From: Alphaproteobacteria bacterium
GTDB lineage: Bacteria > Pseudomonadota > Alphaproteobacteria > Micropepsales > Micropepsaceae
Reading direction: 5' to 3'
DNA: 40,052 bases
Assembly (NCBI GenBank): GCA_016792565.1
Contig: JAEUMK010000028.1
Location: forward strand, 1-40,052
In this document: positions 28,531 through 35,216 of the stretch, piece by piece
Position numbering within the stretch: the stretch's first letter is position 1
Layout of the letters: the number at the start of each line of letters is the position of its first letter
Translations under genes and position numbers: made by a program
Notes under the pieces: generated by a model
Told to the model about the DNA's origin: nothing
Database searches by the model: none
The model's input: the letters and a program-made list of their open reading frames with translations, nothing else

Positions 28531-29652
28531 ATGAGCGACGCCTCCCTGCAGCGCGAGCCTCCCGACCGCCCGTGGTCGGCTCTGGCCGTGGAATGGCTGC
28601 GCGAGCATCTGTTCTCGTCGTGGACGAACATCCTGCTCACGATCCTCTCCATCGCCTTCATCGCCGCCGTCGTGCCGCCGGCTCTGGACTGGGCGGTCTT
28701 CAGCGCGGTGTGGAGCGGCGAGACCCGCGAGGCCTGCCTCGGCGAGGGCAAGGGCGCCTGCTGGCCCTACATCGCCGGCCGCGGCGGGCAGCTCATCTAC
28801 GGCTTCTACGACGCGGTCGAGCGCTGGCGCGTCGACATCGTCTACGTCGTCGGCGCGATCGGCATCGCCTGGCTGATGATCCCGCGCCTGCCGGGCAAGC
28901 TCTGGGTCGGCCTGGCGATGGTCTTCGCCTTCCCGCTGCTCGTCTATGTGCTTCTGTCGGGCGGCCTGTTCGGCCTGCCCATCGTGCCGTCGAGCAAGTG
29001 GGGCGGCCTGTTGCTGACCCTGATCATCTCGCTCACCGGGATCGTCGTCTCGCTGCCGCTCGGCATTCTCCTGGCGCTCGGCCGCCAGTCGGAGCTGCCG
29101 GTGATCCGCTGGCTGTCGATCGGCTTCATCGAGTTCGTGCGCGGCGTGCCGCTGATCATGATCCTCTTCATGGCCTCGAACCTGATGCCGCTGTTCCTGC
29201 CCTCGGGCTGGAACCCGGACAAGCTGCTGCGCGCGCTGGTCGCGATCTCGCTGTTCAGCTCGGCCTATATGGCCGAGATCGTGCGCGGCGGCCTCGCGGC
29301 GATCCCCAAGGGACAGCGCGAGGCGGCGGCGGCGCTGGGCCTCGGCTACTGGCGCACGACGCTGCTGATCACCATGCCGCAGGCCCTGAAGATCTCGCTG
29401 CCTTCGATCGTCTCGTCCTGCATCAGCCTCTTCAAGGACACCTCGCTCATCTCGATCATGGGCTTTTTCGACTTCCTGCAGGTCATCAAGGCCGGCAATT
29501 CGGACCCCGCCTGGTCGACGCCCAACACGGCGTTCACCGGCTATCTCTTCGCGGCGCTCGTCTATTTCGCGTTCTGCTTCGGCATGTCGCGCTACAGCGC
29601 CTATCTGGAACGCACCGTGGGCGGCGGCAAAGTCGGAACCGGCAAGGCATGA
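28531..29652 (+). CDS. aapM: General L-amino acid ABC transporter permease
   Basis: A 373-residue permease homologous to AapM, with a long cytoplasmic N-terminus followed by membrane helices and the coupling motif [20 protein letters not shown] and [15 protein letters not shown]. With AapQ it forms the transmembrane pore. ATG 28531 follows GGGAGCG. The stop overlaps the aapP start (ATGA at 29649-29652), so the ratio of permease to ATPase is translationally coupled. Confidence 0.93.
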
Positions 29653-30395
29653 GCGACACCTGGGCCATCGAGATGGAGCGCGTGAACAAGTGGTACGGCC
29701 GCTTTCACGTGCTGAAGGACGCCTCGCTGAAAGTGGCGAAGGGCGAGCGCATCGTGATCTGCGGGCCATCGGGCTCCGGCAAGTCGACGCTGATCCGCTG
29801 CATCAACCACCTGGAGGAGCACCAGTCGGGCCGTATCCTGGTCGAGGGGCACGAGCTGACCAGCAATCTGCGCGCCATCGACGAAGTGCGGCGCGAGGTC
29901 GGCATGGTGTTCCAGCAGTTCAACCTCTTCCCGCATCTCACGGTGCTGGAGAACTGCACGCTGGCGCAGATCTGGGTGCGCAAGCGTCCCAAGGCCGAGG
30001 CCGAGAAGACGGCGCTGGAACTTCTGGAACGCGTGCGCATCGTCGAGCAGGCGAAGAAATATCCCGGCCAGCTTTCCGGCGGCCAGCAGCAGCGCGTGGC
30101 GATCGCCCGGGCGCTGGCCATGGATCCCAAGATCATGCTGTTCGACGAGCCGACCTCGGCGCTCGATCCGGAAATGATCGGCGAGGTTCTGGAAGTCATG
30201 GTCGAGCTGGCGGAGGAGGGGATGACGATGCTGGTCGTCACCCACGAGATGGGTTTTGCCCGCAAGGTCGCCGACCGCGTGGTCTTCATGGACTACGGCC
30301 GCATCGTCGAGGAAGCCCCGCCCGCCGAGTTTTTCGAGAACCCGAAGCACGAGCGCACGAAGCAGTTCCTCAGCCAGATTCTCGTGGGGCACTGA
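29649..30395 (+). CDS. aapP: General L-amino acid ABC transporter ATPase
   Basis: A 248-residue ATPase with Walker [10 protein letters not shown] (39-47), Q-loop [10 protein letters not shown], signature [15 protein letters not shown], Walker [15 protein letters not shown] and H-loop VTHEM. This is the polar amino-acid subfamily, consistent with AapP. It powers AapQM. It closes the operon and is followed by a hairpin with an 8-base perfect stem. Confidence 0.95.
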
Positions 30396-30406
30396 GGCGA
30401 GGCGGT

Positions 30407-30435
30407 CTGTCGCACATGACGCTGCGACAGGTTTA
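30407..30435 (+). terminator. Candidate terminator of aapJQMP
   Basis: CTGTCGCA (30407-30414) and TGCGACAG (30423-30430) are perfect arms around an 8-base loop, followed by GTTTAATT. The stem begins 12 bases after the aapP stop. The T-run is short, so termination may be partial. Confidence 0.55.
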
Positions 30436-30525
30436 ATTCCGCTCCGGGCACCCCATGTCCTCAGACGCCGGGGCCGGAGCGGGCGATCCGAACCGCCCGC
30501 CGCGCCCGGTCCTGAAGGAGAACAT

Positions 30526-31140
30526 ATGAAACTCTACTATTCCCCCGGCGCCTGTTCGCTCGCGCCGCACATCGTCCTGCGCGAGGCCGGCTATGCCTTC
30601 GATCTCGACAAGATCGACATGAAGGCCAAGAAGACGGCGGACGGGTCCGACTATCTGGCCGTCAATCCCAAGGGCGCCGTGCCGGCGTTGCAGCTGGGCG
30701 GCGGCGAGGTCCTGACCGAAGGGCCGGCGATCACGCAGTATCTCGCCGACCAGAAGCCCGAGAGCGGCCTGGCGCCGAAGCCCGGCACGCTGGAGCGCGC
30801 ACGGCTTCAGGAAGTGCTGAACTACCTCTCGTCCGAACTGCACAAGGCATTCGGACCGATCTTCCAGGGCGGCAGCGACGAGGCCAAGAAGGCGGCGATC
30901 GAAACCGTTTCCAAGCGCCTCGGCTATCTGGAGACGCTGTTCGCGGACGGCCGCGACTTCGTCTGCGGCGCGACCTTCAGCGTCGCCGATGCCTATCTCT
31001 TCGTCCTGCAGAGCTGGGCCGGCTTCGTCGGCATCGACCTCAAGACCTGGCCGAAGCTCGCGGCCTACCAGGCGCGCATCGCGGCGCGTCCCAAGGTCCA
31101 GGAAGCCCTCGTCGCCGAAGGCCTGGCGAAGGCCGCCTGA
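30526..31140 (+). CDS. Glutathione S-transferase, beta class
   Basis: A 204-residue GST. The N-terminus MKLYYSPGACSLAPHIVLRE is diagnostic of bacterial beta-class enzymes, with C10 able to form the mixed disulfide with glutathione. NPKGAVPAL and LTEGPAITQYLAD complete the thioredoxin-like domain, and an all-helical domain follows. It conjugates or reduces electrophiles and peroxides with glutathione in the cytoplasm. AAGGAG sits 7 bases before ATG 30526, the strongest ribosome site in the region. It is monocistronic, closed by the hairpin at 31157-31183. Confidence 0.93.
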   Translation: MKLYYSPGACSLAPHIVLREAGYAFDLDKIDMKAKKTADGSDYLAVNPKGAVPALQLGGGEVLTEGPAITQYLADQKPESGLAPKPGTLERARLQEVLNYLSSELHKAFGPIFQGGSDEAKKAAIETVSKRLGYLETLFADGRDFVCGATFSVADAYLFVLQSWAGFVGIDLKTWPKLAAYQARIAARPKVQEALVAEGLAKAA

Positions 31141-31156
31141 CGCCGGATGCGCAATA

Positions 31157-31183
31157 CCCCCGGAGCGCCAGGCGTTCCGGGGG
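31157..31183. terminator. Hairpin terminator between convergent genes
   Basis: CCCCCGGAGCGC (31157-31168) pairs with GCGTTCCGGGGG (31172-31183), including one G-U pair, around a three-base loop. It sits between the GST stop (31140) and the end of the minus-strand repeat-protein gene (31198) and could end both transcripts. The T-run is poor. Confidence 0.55.
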
Positions 31184-31197
31184 CTTGTAGCGCGGTG

Positions 31198-31608
31198 TCA
31201 GTTCGGCGTGTAGCCGCCGCCGACGCCGGGGCCGTCTTCGCCAGCCGCCGGCGGCTTGTCCTCGCAGCCGGGCGCGGCCGCCTTGCCGTCCTCGCCATAG
31301 CCGCCGCCGACGCCCGGGCCGTCTTCGCACTTGGTCGTGTCGGCGGCAGGCTCGCCGGCCGCGGGTTCCGCGGCGGTTTCGCTGTAGCCGCCGCCGGCGC
31401 CGGGACCGTCGTCGTCGGTCTTGGCTGCGTCCGTGCAGCCGGGCGCCTTGCCCGGTTCCGCGTAGCCGCCGCCGGCGCCGGGGCCGTCCTCGCATCCGGC
31501 GTCGGTCGCCGGTTCGCCGGCCGGGGCCGGCGTCGGCTCCGCCGTCTGGGCCGCTGCGCTGGCTACGCCGAGCGCGACGCTCAGCAACAGTGTCGAACAG
31601 ATCTTCAT
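31198..31608 (-). CDS. Secreted protein with four DGPGxGGGY repeats, unknown function
   Basis: A 136-residue protein with a signal peptide (KICSTLLLSVALGVASAAA, cleavage near residue 20) and a mature part that is acidic and rich in Pro, Gly and Ala. The nonamer DGPGAGGGY or DGPGVGGGY occurs four times, at 41-49, 67-75, 96-104 and 125-133, usually preceded by Glu or Asp. The last three are 29 residues apart. Mature cysteines C39, C58, C94 and C115 lie between the repeats. I recognise no family. The repeats could be metal-binding or structural loops, and the protein is probably intrinsically disordered. ATG 31608 follows GGGAG. It ends near the hairpin shared with the GST gene. Confidence 0.75.
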   Translation of the reverse strand: MKICSTLLLSVALGVASAAAQTAEPTPAPAGEPATDAGCEDGPGAGGGYAEPGKAPGCTDAAKTDDDGPGAGGGYSETAAEPAAGEPAADTTKCEDGPGVGGGYGEDGKAAAPGCEDKPPAAGEDGPGVGGGYTPN

Positions 31609-31683
31609 GGGCCACTCCCTCGCTTTGGGTCCCGCTGCGATCATCCTAGCGGTTGACGGCGGGATTGCGGCTGCGGCGATGCG

Positions 31684-32250
31684 TCATGGCGACGCGGGGG
31701 CGGCTCTCTGGGCGGCGACCAGCGGGTGCGGCTCGTCGCCGATCGGCTCGACCATCGCCTGGACCTGGCCGAAGGGCTGGAAACCGAAGCGCTGATAGAG
31801 CGGCAGGGCGCGCGGGTGATCCAGGGTGCAGGTCTGGACGTGCAGCCGCCGGGGGGCCTTGTCCCAGGCGATGGCGATCGCTTCGCCGAGGAAGAAGGCG
31901 CCCAGGCCCAGCCCGGTGTAATCCGGCGCGAGGCCGAAATAGGCGAGCTCGATGTTCTGCGGATTGCGGGCGTCCAGCTCGGCATAGCCGGCCGGGCAGC
32001 CATCGACGTAGAGGACGTAGATCTCGATCCCGTCCTGGTGGATCGCGGCGGCGAGATCGGCGTCGCTCATCCGCCGCCGGTTGACCCAGACCCAGGGCTT
32101 GCCGACGCTCTCGTAGAGAAAGCGGTAGAAGCCGACCGGCGGCCGCTCGGCCCGGGTCAGCAGAAGACGGCGGCCCGTCGGCGCCGTCGCGCGGCGCTCG
32201 CTGCGGGCATACATCTGCAGGAAGGTGACCGTCGTCGGCAGCGGGATCAT
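31684..32250 (-). CDS. GNAT family N-acetyltransferase
   Basis: A 188-residue GNAT protein. The acetyl-CoA pyrophosphate loop region is YTGLGLGAFFLGEAIAIAW, preceded by IYVLYVDGCPAGYAELDA, and HPRALPLYQRFGFQPFG marks the C-terminal strand. It transfers an acetyl group to an unknown amine. Its ATG 32250 is 2 bases after the stop of the sulfurtransferase gene, so the two are co-transcribed. The C-terminal tail (VAAQRAAPASP) is not conserved in the family. Confidence 0.87.
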   Translation of the reverse strand: MIPLPTTVTFLQMYARSERRATAPTGRRLLLTRAERPPVGFYRFLYESVGKPWVWVNRRRMSDADLAAAIHQDGIEIYVLYVDGCPAGYAELDARNPQNIELAYFGLAPDYTGLGLGAFFLGEAIAIAWDKAPRRLHVQTCTLDHPRALPLYQRFGFQPFGQVQAMVEPIGDEPHPLVAAQRAAPASP

Positions 32251-32252
32251 CG

Positions 32253-33107
32253 TCAGGGGCCGGTGGCGACCGGCGCGTCGGCACGGCCGCCCCAATCCGC
32301 CCAGGAGCCGTCGTAGAGCGCGCCGTCGCGATGGCCGATCGCGGCAAGCGCCAGGAGCGGCAGGCAGGCCGAGACGCCCGAGCCGCAGGTCGCGATGACC
32401 GGCCGCTTCGGGTCGATCCCCGCCTCGGCGAAAACCCGCAGCAGGTCGTCCTTGCGCTTCAGCGTGCCGTCCGGGCGCAGCAGCGTGGCGAAGGGCAGGT
32501 TGACGGCGCCCGGCATGTGGCCGCTGCGCAGTCCCGGCCGGGGCTCCGGCTCCGCGCCCGAGAAGCGCGCCGCCGAGCGGGCGTCGATGACCTGGGCGGT
32601 CCCGTTCTCCAGAGCGGACTTCACGTCCTGGAACGTACGCACCAGCGACCAGTTGGGACGCGTCGTGAAATGGCGCTGGAAGGGGGAGATGGTGGCGTCG
32701 GTGACCGGCAGCCCCTCGGCCCGCCATTTCAGGAAGCCCCCGTCCAGCACCACGACGTTCTCGTGGCCCATGGCCCGGAACATCCACCACGCCCGCGCCG
32801 CCGAAAACATGCCGTAGGCATCGTAGACGACGACCGTGGTGCCGTCCCCGATGCCCAGCCTGCGCACCCGGCTCGAGAACTTCTCCGCCGGCGGCAGCAT
32901 GTGCGGCAGGGGCGAGGCGGCATCGGCGATTTCGTCGATGTCGAAGAACAGGGCGCCCGGAATGTGCTCGTCCTCGAACTCGCGCCGGCCCGACCGGTTG
33001 GCGGCCGGAAGGTGCCAGGAGGCGTCGAGAATGCGGATGTCCGGCGTTCCCAGCCGGTCCTTGAGCCAATCGCAGGAAACGAGCACGGAGGGATCGCTGA
33101 GGGGCAT
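32253..33107 (-). CDS. sseA: 3-mercaptopyruvate sulfurtransferase
   Basis: A 284-residue two-domain rhodanese. Only the second domain has the catalytic loop, with C241 in ATCGSGVSA, the mercaptopyruvate-type motif (CGSGVTA in E. coli SseA), not the CRKGVT of thiosulfate rhodaneses. The first domain begins VLVSCDWLKDRL and includes HIPGALFFDIDEI. It moves sulfur from 3-mercaptopyruvate to thiol or cyanide acceptors. A candidate promoter lies upstream (33137-33165). It could feed sulfur to tRNA or molybdenum-cofactor pathways, but that is not shown. Confidence 0.93.
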   Translation of the reverse strand: MPLSDPSVLVSCDWLKDRLGTPDIRILDASWHLPAANRSGRREFEDEHIPGALFFDIDEIADAASPLPHMLPPAEKFSSRVRRLGIGDGTTVVVYDAYGMFSAARAWWMFRAMGHENVVVLDGGFLKWRAEGLPVTDATISPFQRHFTTRPNWSLVRTFQDVKSALENGTAQVIDARSAARFSGAEPEPRPGLRSGHMPGAVNLPFATLLRPDGTLKRKDDLLRVFAEAGIDPKRPVIATCGSGVSACLPLLALAAIGHRDGALYDGSWADWGGRADAPVATGP

Positions 33108-33136
33108 GGGCGTTTCTGTTGTTGCGGTCCCGAGCC

Positions 33137-33165
33137 TTTTAGCGTCGCTTGTGCCGCCCCGTCCA
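33137..33165 (-). promoter_or_regulatory. Candidate promoter of sseA
   Basis: On the minus strand TGGACG (33165-33160) is followed after 17 bases by CTAAAA (33142-33137). Transcription would begin near 33130, some 22 bases before the start codon. The match to consensus is moderate and unverified. Confidence 0.3.
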
Positions 33166-33263
33166 CGGCGGGACGTCGAGGCTGTCTTTGCATCCGTACC
33201 GCACCCGGCGGCGTAGATGGGCTATCCGCAAGACTTGGCTGGCCGATCAAAGGGAGCGCAACC

Positions 33264-33926
33264 ATGGTTCGCAGCATTGCCGTCGTTCTACTGGCGTTCC
33301 TCGGGCTGGCGGCAGCCCGCGCCGAGGCCAGCCAGCCCTCCGACATCGACTTCCGCGTCTTCCGGGACGGCGAGGAGATCGGGCACCACCGCGTGACCTT
33401 CTCGCGCGAGGGCGACGACCTGATCGCCGAGACCTCCATCGAACTGGCCGTGACGTTCGCCTCGATCCGGGTCTTCTACTACAATCACAGCTCGCGCGAA
33501 GTCTGGCGGGACGGGGCGCTGCAGGCCCTCAGCTCGACCACCTACGACGACGGCGACGACCATACGCTCTCGCTCCAGCGCCAGGGCGACGGCTTCGTCG
33601 TCCAGGGCACGCGCTTCAGCGGGCCGGTCTCGGCCGATGCCGTGCCGACCTCGTACTGGTTTCCCCAGATGATCAGCGCCGGGCGCTTCATCGACACCCA
33701 GAACGGACGCGTCTTCGACGGCCGGATCGACCGGATCGGCGCGGAAACCATCGAGGTCGGCGGCGTCCAGGTCCCGGCGACGCGCTACACGCTGACCGAG
33801 GCGCTTGAGATGAACCTCTGGTACGACGCCGCGGGCCGCTGGGTGCGCACCTCGTTCGAGGCCCGCGGATCGCAGATCGAGTACGTTCTGGCCGCGCCTC
33901 TGCCGCCGGTGACGGCGTCGAACTAG
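33264..33926 (+). CDS. Secreted DUF6134-like protein
   Basis: A 220-residue protein with a signal peptide (VRSIAVVLLAFLGLAAARAEA). The mature part is beta-rich: FRVFRDGEEIGHHRVTFSREGD, then repeated strands, and NLWYDAAGRWVRTSFEARGS at the end. This resembles the family annotated DUF6134, related to DUF3108 outer-membrane-associated proteins; the function is unknown. AGGGAG precedes ATG 33264. It is divergent from sseA and monocistronic, closed by the terminator at 33937-33964. Confidence 0.7.
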   Translation: MVRSIAVVLLAFLGLAAARAEASQPSDIDFRVFRDGEEIGHHRVTFSREGDDLIAETSIELAVTFASIRVFYYNHSSREVWRDGALQALSSTTYDDGDDHTLSLQRQGDGFVVQGTRFSGPVSADAVPTSYWFPQMISAGRFIDTQNGRVFDGRIDRIGAETIEVGGVQVPATRYTLTEALEMNLWYDAAGRWVRTSFEARGSQIEYVLAAPLPPVTASN

Positions 33927-33936
33927 GCTGGCGAAG

Positions 33937-33964
33937 GGCCCGCCGCCTGCCGGCGGGCCTCTTG
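33937..33964. terminator. Rho-independent terminator after the DUF6134-like gene
   Basis: GGCCCGCCG (33937-33945) and CGGCGGGCC (33951-33959) form a perfect 9-base stem with a 5-base loop, followed by TCTT. It sits between the stop at 33926 and the convergent gene end at 33978, so it could serve both strands. Confidence 0.7.
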
Positions 33965-33977
33965 CGGGCACTGCCTG

Positions 33978-35216
33978 TCAGGGTTTTGTCAGGCGCGCCT
34001 GGATCACGTCGATCGAGCCGCCCGAGAACCCGGCCTCGCAATAGCAGAAGTAATAGGTCCACAGCCGCTTGAAGCGCTCGTCGAAGCCGAGCGCCTCGAT
34101 GTCGCTCCAGCGGGCGAGAAAGCGCCGCCGCCACTCCGCCAGCGTCCGCGCATAGTCGGCGCCGAAGGCGTGGTGCCCGGACCAGCCGAGGCCGGCCCGG
34201 CCCACCTGGCTGCGCAGCGCCGAGAGGGTCGGCAGCATGCCGCCCGGAAAGACGTACTTCTGGATGAAGTCGACCGAGCGGCGATAGGTCTCGAAGCTGG
34301 CGTCGGAGATGGTGATGATCTGCAGCGCCGCCGCGCCGCCCGGCTTCAGGACTTCGGCGACCTTGCCGAAATAGGCCGGCCAGTAGCGCTCGCCGACCGC
34401 CTCGAACATCTCGATCGAGATGACCTTGTCATAGGTCTCGGCGACGTCGCGATAGTCCTGGAAACGCAGCGCGACGCGGTCCGACAGGCCGGCCCGCTGC
34501 ATGCGGGCCCTGGCGTAGTCGAGCTGCGCCTGGCTGATCGTGATGCCGGTGACTTCGGCGCCCCGGCGGGCGGCGGCGTACTCGGCGAAGCCGCCCCAGC
34601 CGCACCCGATCTCCAGCACGCGTTCGCCGGGCCTGAGGTCGATGGCGTCGGCGAGCGCGGCGTATTTCGCCGTCTGGGCGTCCGCGAGGCTTTCGGCGCC
34701 GCTGTCGTAGCGGGCCGCCGAATAGGTCATCGTCTCGTCGAGGAAGGACTCGTAGAACGCATTTCCAAGATCGTAGTGCGCGTGGATGTTGCGCCGCGCG
34801 CCGCGCCGCGTGTTGGCCCGCAGCGCGTGCACCAGCCGGTCGAACAGCCGCCGCATCCGGCTGGGCCGTCCGCCGCTTTCGTAGGCCGTGTTGAGGAGCC
34901 CGCAGGTCAGCAGGCCGGTGACGTCGGGGCTGTCCCAGAGGCCGTCGAGATAGGCCTCGGCGAAGCCCAGCGAGCCGCCCATGGCCAGACGGGTGAACAT
35001 CGCGTTGTCGTGGACCTGCAGGAAGGCGGACGGGCCAGGCTCCGCGCCGCGGAATTCGAAACGCCGGCCGTCCGGCAGAGCGAGGGTCATGGACCCGAAG
35101 CGGATCCGCTCCAGCGCCGTGAGGACCATCCGGGCGGCGAAGGGCAGGCCGCGATAGGCGGCCGCCGGCTTCTGCGCGCTGCGCCGTTGCGGGTAGGCGG
35201 TGCTGTCCATGGTCAT
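33978..35216 (-). CDS. Cyclopropane-fatty-acyl-phospholipid synthase-like SAM methyltransferase
   Basis: A 412-residue methyltransferase of the CFA synthase family. The SAM site is VLEIGCGWGGFAEYA (200-214); MFEAVG keeps the catalytic-site glutamate (E272). Two positions of the bicarbonate site seen in E. coli Cfa differ: A167 (YSAARY) aligns with Cys139, and Q299 (LQIITIS) aligns with His266. The enzyme methylates double bonds of membrane-lipid acyl chains with SAM. The product may be a cyclopropane or, given those changes and the flavoprotein neighbour, a methyl- or methylene-branched chain. ATG 35216 overlaps the DUF1365 gene stop, and this is the last gene of a four-gene operon. Confidence 0.88.
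   Translation of the reverse strand: MTMDSTAYPQRRSAQKPAAAYRGLPFAARMVLTALERIRFGSMTLALPDGRRFEFRGAEPGPSAFLQVHDNAMFTRLAMGGSLGFAEAYLDGLWDSPDVTGLLTCGLLNTAYESGGRPSRMRRLFDRLVHALRANTRRGARRNIHAHYDLGNAFYESFLDETMTYSAARYDSGAESLADAQTAKYAALADAIDLRPGERVLEIGCGWGGFAEYAAARRGAEVTGITISQAQLDYARARMQRAGLSDRVALRFQDYRDVAETYDKVISIEMFEAVGERYWPAYFGKVAEVLKPGGAAALQIITISDASFETYRRSVDFIQKYVFPGGMLPTLSALRSQVGRAGLGWSGHHAFGADYARTLAEWRRRFLARWSDIEALGFDERFKRLWTYYFCYCEAGFSGGSIDVIQARLTKP

Follow-up and report, generated by a model that had tools for sequence, protein, structure and literature searches.

Gene and Protein Organization

The window, i.e. the whole stretch of 40,052 nucleotides that was analyzed, contains an open reading frame (P0001) at positions 31198..31608 of the minus strand, which encodes a predicted secreted protein of 136 residues with repeats of the form [DE]DGPGxGGGY. 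A syntenic ortholog, P0002, is present in Alphaproteobacteria bacterium SO-S41 (AP024629.1), which belongs to the same genus as the genome that holds the window. SO-S41 is a slow-growing forest-soil isolate that is highly sensitive to H2O2 and, according to its authors, possibly novel at the order level (PMC8297455). The frame, its strand and length, and its four copies of DGPG(A/V)GGGY are as given in the preliminary description of this DNA. Blocks 1 (31462..31488) and 2 (31384..31410) read DGPGAGGGY, and blocks 3 (31297..31323) and 4 (31210..31236) read DGPGVGGGY, all on the minus strand. The first Asp of each block falls at residues 41, 67, 96, and 125, respectively, giving spacings of 26, 29, and 29 residues.

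The N terminus of P0001, MKICSTLLLSVALGVASAAA, resembles a Sec-type signal sequence spanning residues 1–21 (31546..31608, minus strand), with cleavage expected after an Ala-rich AxA stretch. The N terminus of the ortholog is also hydrophobic and ends in VPAMA. A positive charge, a hydrophobic stretch, and an AxA-type site could be read by eye in both proteins, and the earlier view that the protein is secreted therefore appears sound. A bacterial lipoprotein was considered and rejected, since Cys-4 is near the beginning of the signal rather than at its end, and the ortholog has no cysteine there. The remaining cysteines of P0001 are at positions 39, 58, 94, and 115; in agreement with the single cysteines first reported between the repeats, one lies between each pair of neighboring blocks (58 between blocks 1 and 2, 94 between 2 and 3, and 115 between 3 and 4), and Cys-39 lies ahead of block 1. 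Two putative disulfide loops can be drawn from the cysteine positions in both orthologs: C39-C58 around block 1 (31435..31494, minus strand) and C94-C115 around block 3 (31264..31329, minus strand).

The mature part of both orthologs is devoid of Ile, Leu, Met, Phe, Trp, and Arg, and its only tyrosines are those of the four blocks. The calculated pI values are 4.05 and 4.27. In P0001, the 115 mature residues include 22 acidic residues and four cysteines but no histidine, as compared with one histidine in the mature ortholog. Shuffling of the mature P0001 sequence 20,000 times gave one copy of a 9-residue template with eight fixed residues in 19,981 cases and two copies in 19, as compared with the four copies observed. 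Given that none of the 20,000 shuffles produced even three copies of one such 8-of-9 template, the repeats go beyond what composition would yield. An AlphaFold2 model built from a two-row alignment had a mean pLDDT of 39 and a pTM of 0.14, with a short helix in the signal as its sole structure; the low pLDDT would fit a disordered chain, for which two rows are weak evidence.

Locus and Conservation in SO-S41

From ∼19 kb onward, the window aligns in large part with SO-S41, in inverted order and up to the window's end, and P0001 lies in full synteny. The neighboring genes encode an amino-acid ABC transporter (SBP_bac_3, two BPD_transp_1, and ABC_tran), a glutathione S-transferase convergent with P0001, and a DUF6134 protein; a GNAT acetyltransferase and a rhodanese protein are encoded upstream on the same strand as P0001. 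Alignment of the upstream DNA with that of SO-S41 revealed a conserved purine-rich ribosome-binding site ahead of the ATG (31616..31625, minus strand). A GC-rich hairpin that is terminator-like but without a T run lies between P0001 and the glutathione S-transferase gene (31157..31183), where it follows the P0001 stop codon in both genomes. A consensus scan around P0001 detected no σ70-type promoter and no T-run terminator, and Rfam gave no match at gathering scores within positions 29000–34000. Because the syntenic ortholog keeps the frame, the start, the ribosome-binding site, and the blocks, P0001 is evidently a real conserved gene and not a spurious frame.

P0001 and P0002 share 59% identity over the matched part and 57% over the full alignment. 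The block spacings in the ortholog are 27, 25, and 27 residues; thus, the 29-residue period originally noted for the last three repeats holds in P0001 but is not kept between the orthologs. What is common to both is a plan that occurs in two copies, Cys-acidic-DGPGxGGGY-linker-Cys-spacer-DGPGxGGGY; blocks 1 and 3 each lie inside a cysteine bracket, and blocks 2 and 4 fall outside. The four mature cysteines are kept in place (C45-C65 and C97-C117 in SO-S41), and an acidic residue precedes every block ([DE]DGPG) in both proteins, as had been noted for P0001. Within the SO-S41 protein, one double unit matches the other at 33 of 38 residues and, in the DNA, at 98 of 114 bases.

Between the orthologs, 33 of the 36 block residues are identical, with all three changes at position x, as compared with 32 of 72 aligned mature residues outside the blocks (Fisher p = 1e-6), a comparison that comes from one ortholog pair, with an alignment anchored by the blocks and a block/linker split chosen after the blocks had been seen. 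Ten of the 14 nucleotide changes within the blocks are at third positions. For the pair overall, dN is 0.33 and dS is 0.68 (dN/dS ∼0.5).

Distribution and Family Searches

At E ≤ 0.001, the protein was found in two of 61 genomes (that of the window and 60 relatives), namely the window's own genome and SO-S41. P0001 was the sole full match in its own genome, accompanied by three weak matches with E values of 0.015–0.72. The other three genomes of the genus yielded neither the protein nor a match at E ≤ 1e-30 to the neighboring glutathione S-transferase, and the stretch may therefore be absent from them or lie in assembly gaps.

Pfam returned for P0001 only DUF6234 at E = 3.4, far from the cut-off; no match passed the cut-off in NCBIfam for either ortholog or in PHROGs, and no PDB sequence matched at E ≤ 10. 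As far as tested, P0001 thus appears to belong to no named family, as the preliminary description had proposed. That description would have been abandoned upon a match to a known family or the lack of a homolog in any relative; no family was matched, and SO-S41 carries a homolog. Literature searches did not find the strings DGPGAGGGY and GPGAGGGY, and nothing retrieved for DGPG with GGGY appeared to be related.

A peptide-pattern search of a genome-contig collection found no close relative of P0001, which is a weak negative because the collection includes SO-S41, whose known ortholog was missed. Within the same order, the looser pattern GPGxGGGY occurred in nine of 96 genomes, two of which are those of the orthologs. 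The other seven were rejected as sources of homologs, the matches being out of frame or isolated linkers in proteins labeled by eye as ricin-B-like, Gly-rich, or glycosyltransferase-like. Among 385 alphaproteobacterial genomes, a sample without SO-S41, DGPGxGGGY was present in two, the window's genome and one in which it was out of frame as judged by eye; such exact-residue patterns miss diverged blocks, which applies equally to the 294-genome scan described below. A tblastn search with the tandem blocks against plasmids and phages gave no match, with a low-complexity filter that may have masked the query.

The Nonamer in Unrelated Proteins

The genome contigs were scanned for two DGPGxGGGY blocks 45–75 bases apart, with the first Asp codon fixed as GAC and x free. 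Five stretches were obtained: SO-S41 and four termed L007 to L010, in which every x is Ala. L007 (2925-3542, bacterium BWSM_10) encodes a 206-residue protein with five DGPGAGGGY blocks, and its gene sits between two HD-GYP-like genes (by eye). L008 (390-650, Pirellulaceae) encodes 87 residues with a signal-like start, four DGPGAGGGY blocks, and the C terminus SPC. Neither protein matched a family in Pfam, PHROGs, or NCBIfam, and among 294 genomes of the L008 phylum DGPGAGGGY occurred only in that of L008 itself. L009 and L010 are Hyphomonadaceae peptidases with four and five C-terminal blocks, respectively; L010 contains a papain-family domain (PF00112), and L009 is a close homolog (72% identity).

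Pairwise comparison of the repeats revealed 46 third-position differences over 10 pairs within L007 and 33 over six pairs within L008, in each case with no amino-acid change. Such silent divergence implies that the nonamer peptide itself can be under selection. In L009 and L010, amino-acid differences between repeats are confined to the residue preceding GPG, and blocks in unrelated proteins can have Arg or Lys in place of the first Asp. The simplest explanation for the tandem block in unrelated proteins is that a tyrosine-bearing Gly/Pro turn has been adopted convergently.

Homologs of the L010 peptidase were found in 18 of 61 Hyphomonadaceae genomes. When 12 of the 18 were scanned for GPGAGGGY, eight had it and four lacked it; judged by position, every occurrence in the eight lies in one of these peptidase genes. 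From the remaining six genomes, three peptidase C termini were read, all without the octamer; some entries among the C termini collected are one protein repeated, as neighboring loci overlap. Several of the tails end exactly in RLRGPGAGGGY. In five of the 18 genomes (L140 to L144; e.g. L142:714-8774), a recurring neighborhood comprises genes for an ECF sigma factor, a zinc-ribbon protein, an FHA protein, a zinc-ribbon kinase, and one or two GPGAGGGY-tailed papain-family peptidases, with labels from Pfam for the L142 set and by eye for the others, and not all genes seen in all regions. The zinc-ribbon protein is coiled-coil-like and has no other Pfam match. This neighborhood looks like an undescribed signaling or conflict system. 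A homolog of the zinc-ribbon protein is encoded in the L008 genome, on a contig other than that of L008, but neither the window's genome nor SO-S41 yielded one at E ≤ 0.001; therefore, nothing ties that gene set to P0001. P0001 itself is not a Peptidase_C1 protein with a GPGAGGGY tail, given that it has no PF00112 match. A search for peptidase homologs in seven genomes, including those of the window and SO-S41, gave no match in a run without a positive control.

Single copies of GPGAGGGY were counted in 40 viral contigs, as compared with 17 and 35 for two scrambled octamers. Plausible in-frame occurrences, defined as an open frame of at least 100 residues with R + A + P below 0.25, numbered 19 for the true octamer and 7 and 20 for the scrambles. 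Those of the true octamer were mainly in Gly-rich proteins, together with one repeated family and linkers in acidic proteins. The latter (L017:3851-4981, also L090, L096, and L111) share a (D/K)(D/E)GPGAGGGY linker that joins an acidic region to a Lys/Glu-rich, helix-like region; the L017 protein has what we take to be a prohead-core look. Given that the viral-contig counts of the true octamer do not clearly exceed those of the scrambles, single copies are regarded as ordinary, no universal motif is claimed, and a phage link was rejected. By the same token, the block may amount to hardly anything beyond a convenient Gly/Pro turn.

Interpretation

We tentatively favor, at somewhat less than an even chance, the reading that P0001 is a lineage-restricted, exported, disordered repeat protein that would make multivalent contacts with the envelope or with itself through tyrosine-bearing turns and two disulfide loops. 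The putative sequence of events is as follows. P0001 would be exported and its signal cleaved, after which the periplasmic oxidation machinery would close C39-C58 and C94-C115 (C45-C65 and C97-C117 in SO-S41). Two loops of ∼20 residues would result, each presenting one [DE]DGPGxGGGY turn, with the remaining two blocks staying in flexible linkers. Within an acidic soluble chain, all four turns, each with a tyrosine, might then engage in weak multivalent contacts with the protein itself or with a partner in the envelope or matrix. The disulfide-linked assembly raised in the preliminary description is compatible with the four cysteines conserved in place.

That description had also raised metal binding. 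A secreted acidic protein that coordinates a metal ion, possibly calcium, through its [DE]DGPG turns and cysteines would suit the 22 acidic residues and four cysteines of mature P0001 and the acidic residue ahead of every block, but the mature protein has no histidine (one in the ortholog) and matches no metal-binder family, none of the scanned neighbors is metal-related, and Arg or Lys can replace the first Asp of the block in unrelated proteins. We consider the proposal unlikely. A comparably low likelihood is assigned to a low-complexity orphan gene whose protein product is under little functional selection: open frames arise readily from high-GC repeats, the gene was found in only two of the 61 genomes, and the overall dN/dS is ∼0.5, whereas block residues are far more conserved than the linkers, and the ribosome-binding site and hairpin are conserved. 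More doubtful still is the idea that bacteria of different phyla have repeatedly acquired [x]GPGAGGGY as a short, hitherto undescribed peptide module, both in secreted repeat proteins and in the C-terminal tails of papain-family peptidases encoded next to genes for sigma factors, FHA proteins, kinases, and zinc-ribbon proteins, because partners or structures of one common type recognize it.

MNIO enzymes (PF05114) mature copper-binding Cys peptides such as bufferins and methanobactins. P0001 could by analogy be the precursor of a ribosomally synthesized, modified peptide (RiPP) with DGPGxGGGY as its repeated core, given its short repeats, cysteines, and signal-like N terminus; one PF05114 gene lies elsewhere in the window's genome, on a different contig (G000:C7:9231-10010, L146). 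No maturase was evident among the scanned neighbors (ABC transporter, glutathione S-transferase, GNAT, rhodanese, and DUF6134), and the complete genome of SO-S41, which has the ortholog, contains no PF05114 match; an MNIO can therefore not be a general requirement, and this origin is very improbable. Similarly remote, and if anything slightly more so, is a periplasmic thiol or redox sink tied by location to sulfur genes. Rhodanese and glutathione S-transferase are indeed neighbors, and high H2O2 sensitivity has been described for SO-S41 (PMC8297455), but the neighbors are ordinary genes on both strands, and the neighborhood is uninformative because the whole region is syntenic.

The analysis thus documents an undescribed, probably exported repeat protein from an alphaproteobacterial lineage about which little is known; its anatomy is clear, with two Cys-bracketed turns and two free ones. 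The recurrence of its nonamer in unrelated tandem-repeat proteins, where the DNA has diverged silently and the peptide is almost unchanged, poses a small puzzle of convergent sequence.

Comparison with Known Systems

MNIO-matured copper peptides resemble P0001 in being short, Cys-containing, and in some cases exported, but differ in that the complete genome of the ortholog has no MNIO gene. RTX calcium-binding repeats have the consensus GGxGxDxUx in contiguous nonapeptides. The P0001 blocks are likewise Gly- and Asp-rich nonapeptides, but their consensus differs, they lie 25–29 residues apart in the two orthologs, and they have no Pfam match. The Hyphomonadaceae papain-family (PF00112) peptidases carry one to five copies of the block, with Asp, Arg, Asn-Arg, or Lys before GPGAGGGY, on a large enzyme domain with no evident signal and no Cys-bracketed plan, and are like P0001 only in the block. 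The Pirellulaceae L008 protein has, like P0001, a signal-like N terminus followed by four DGPGAGGGY blocks, whereas its spacers are short, its repeat part has a single cysteine (the C-terminal residue), and it comes from another phylum; here too, the likeness resides in the block.
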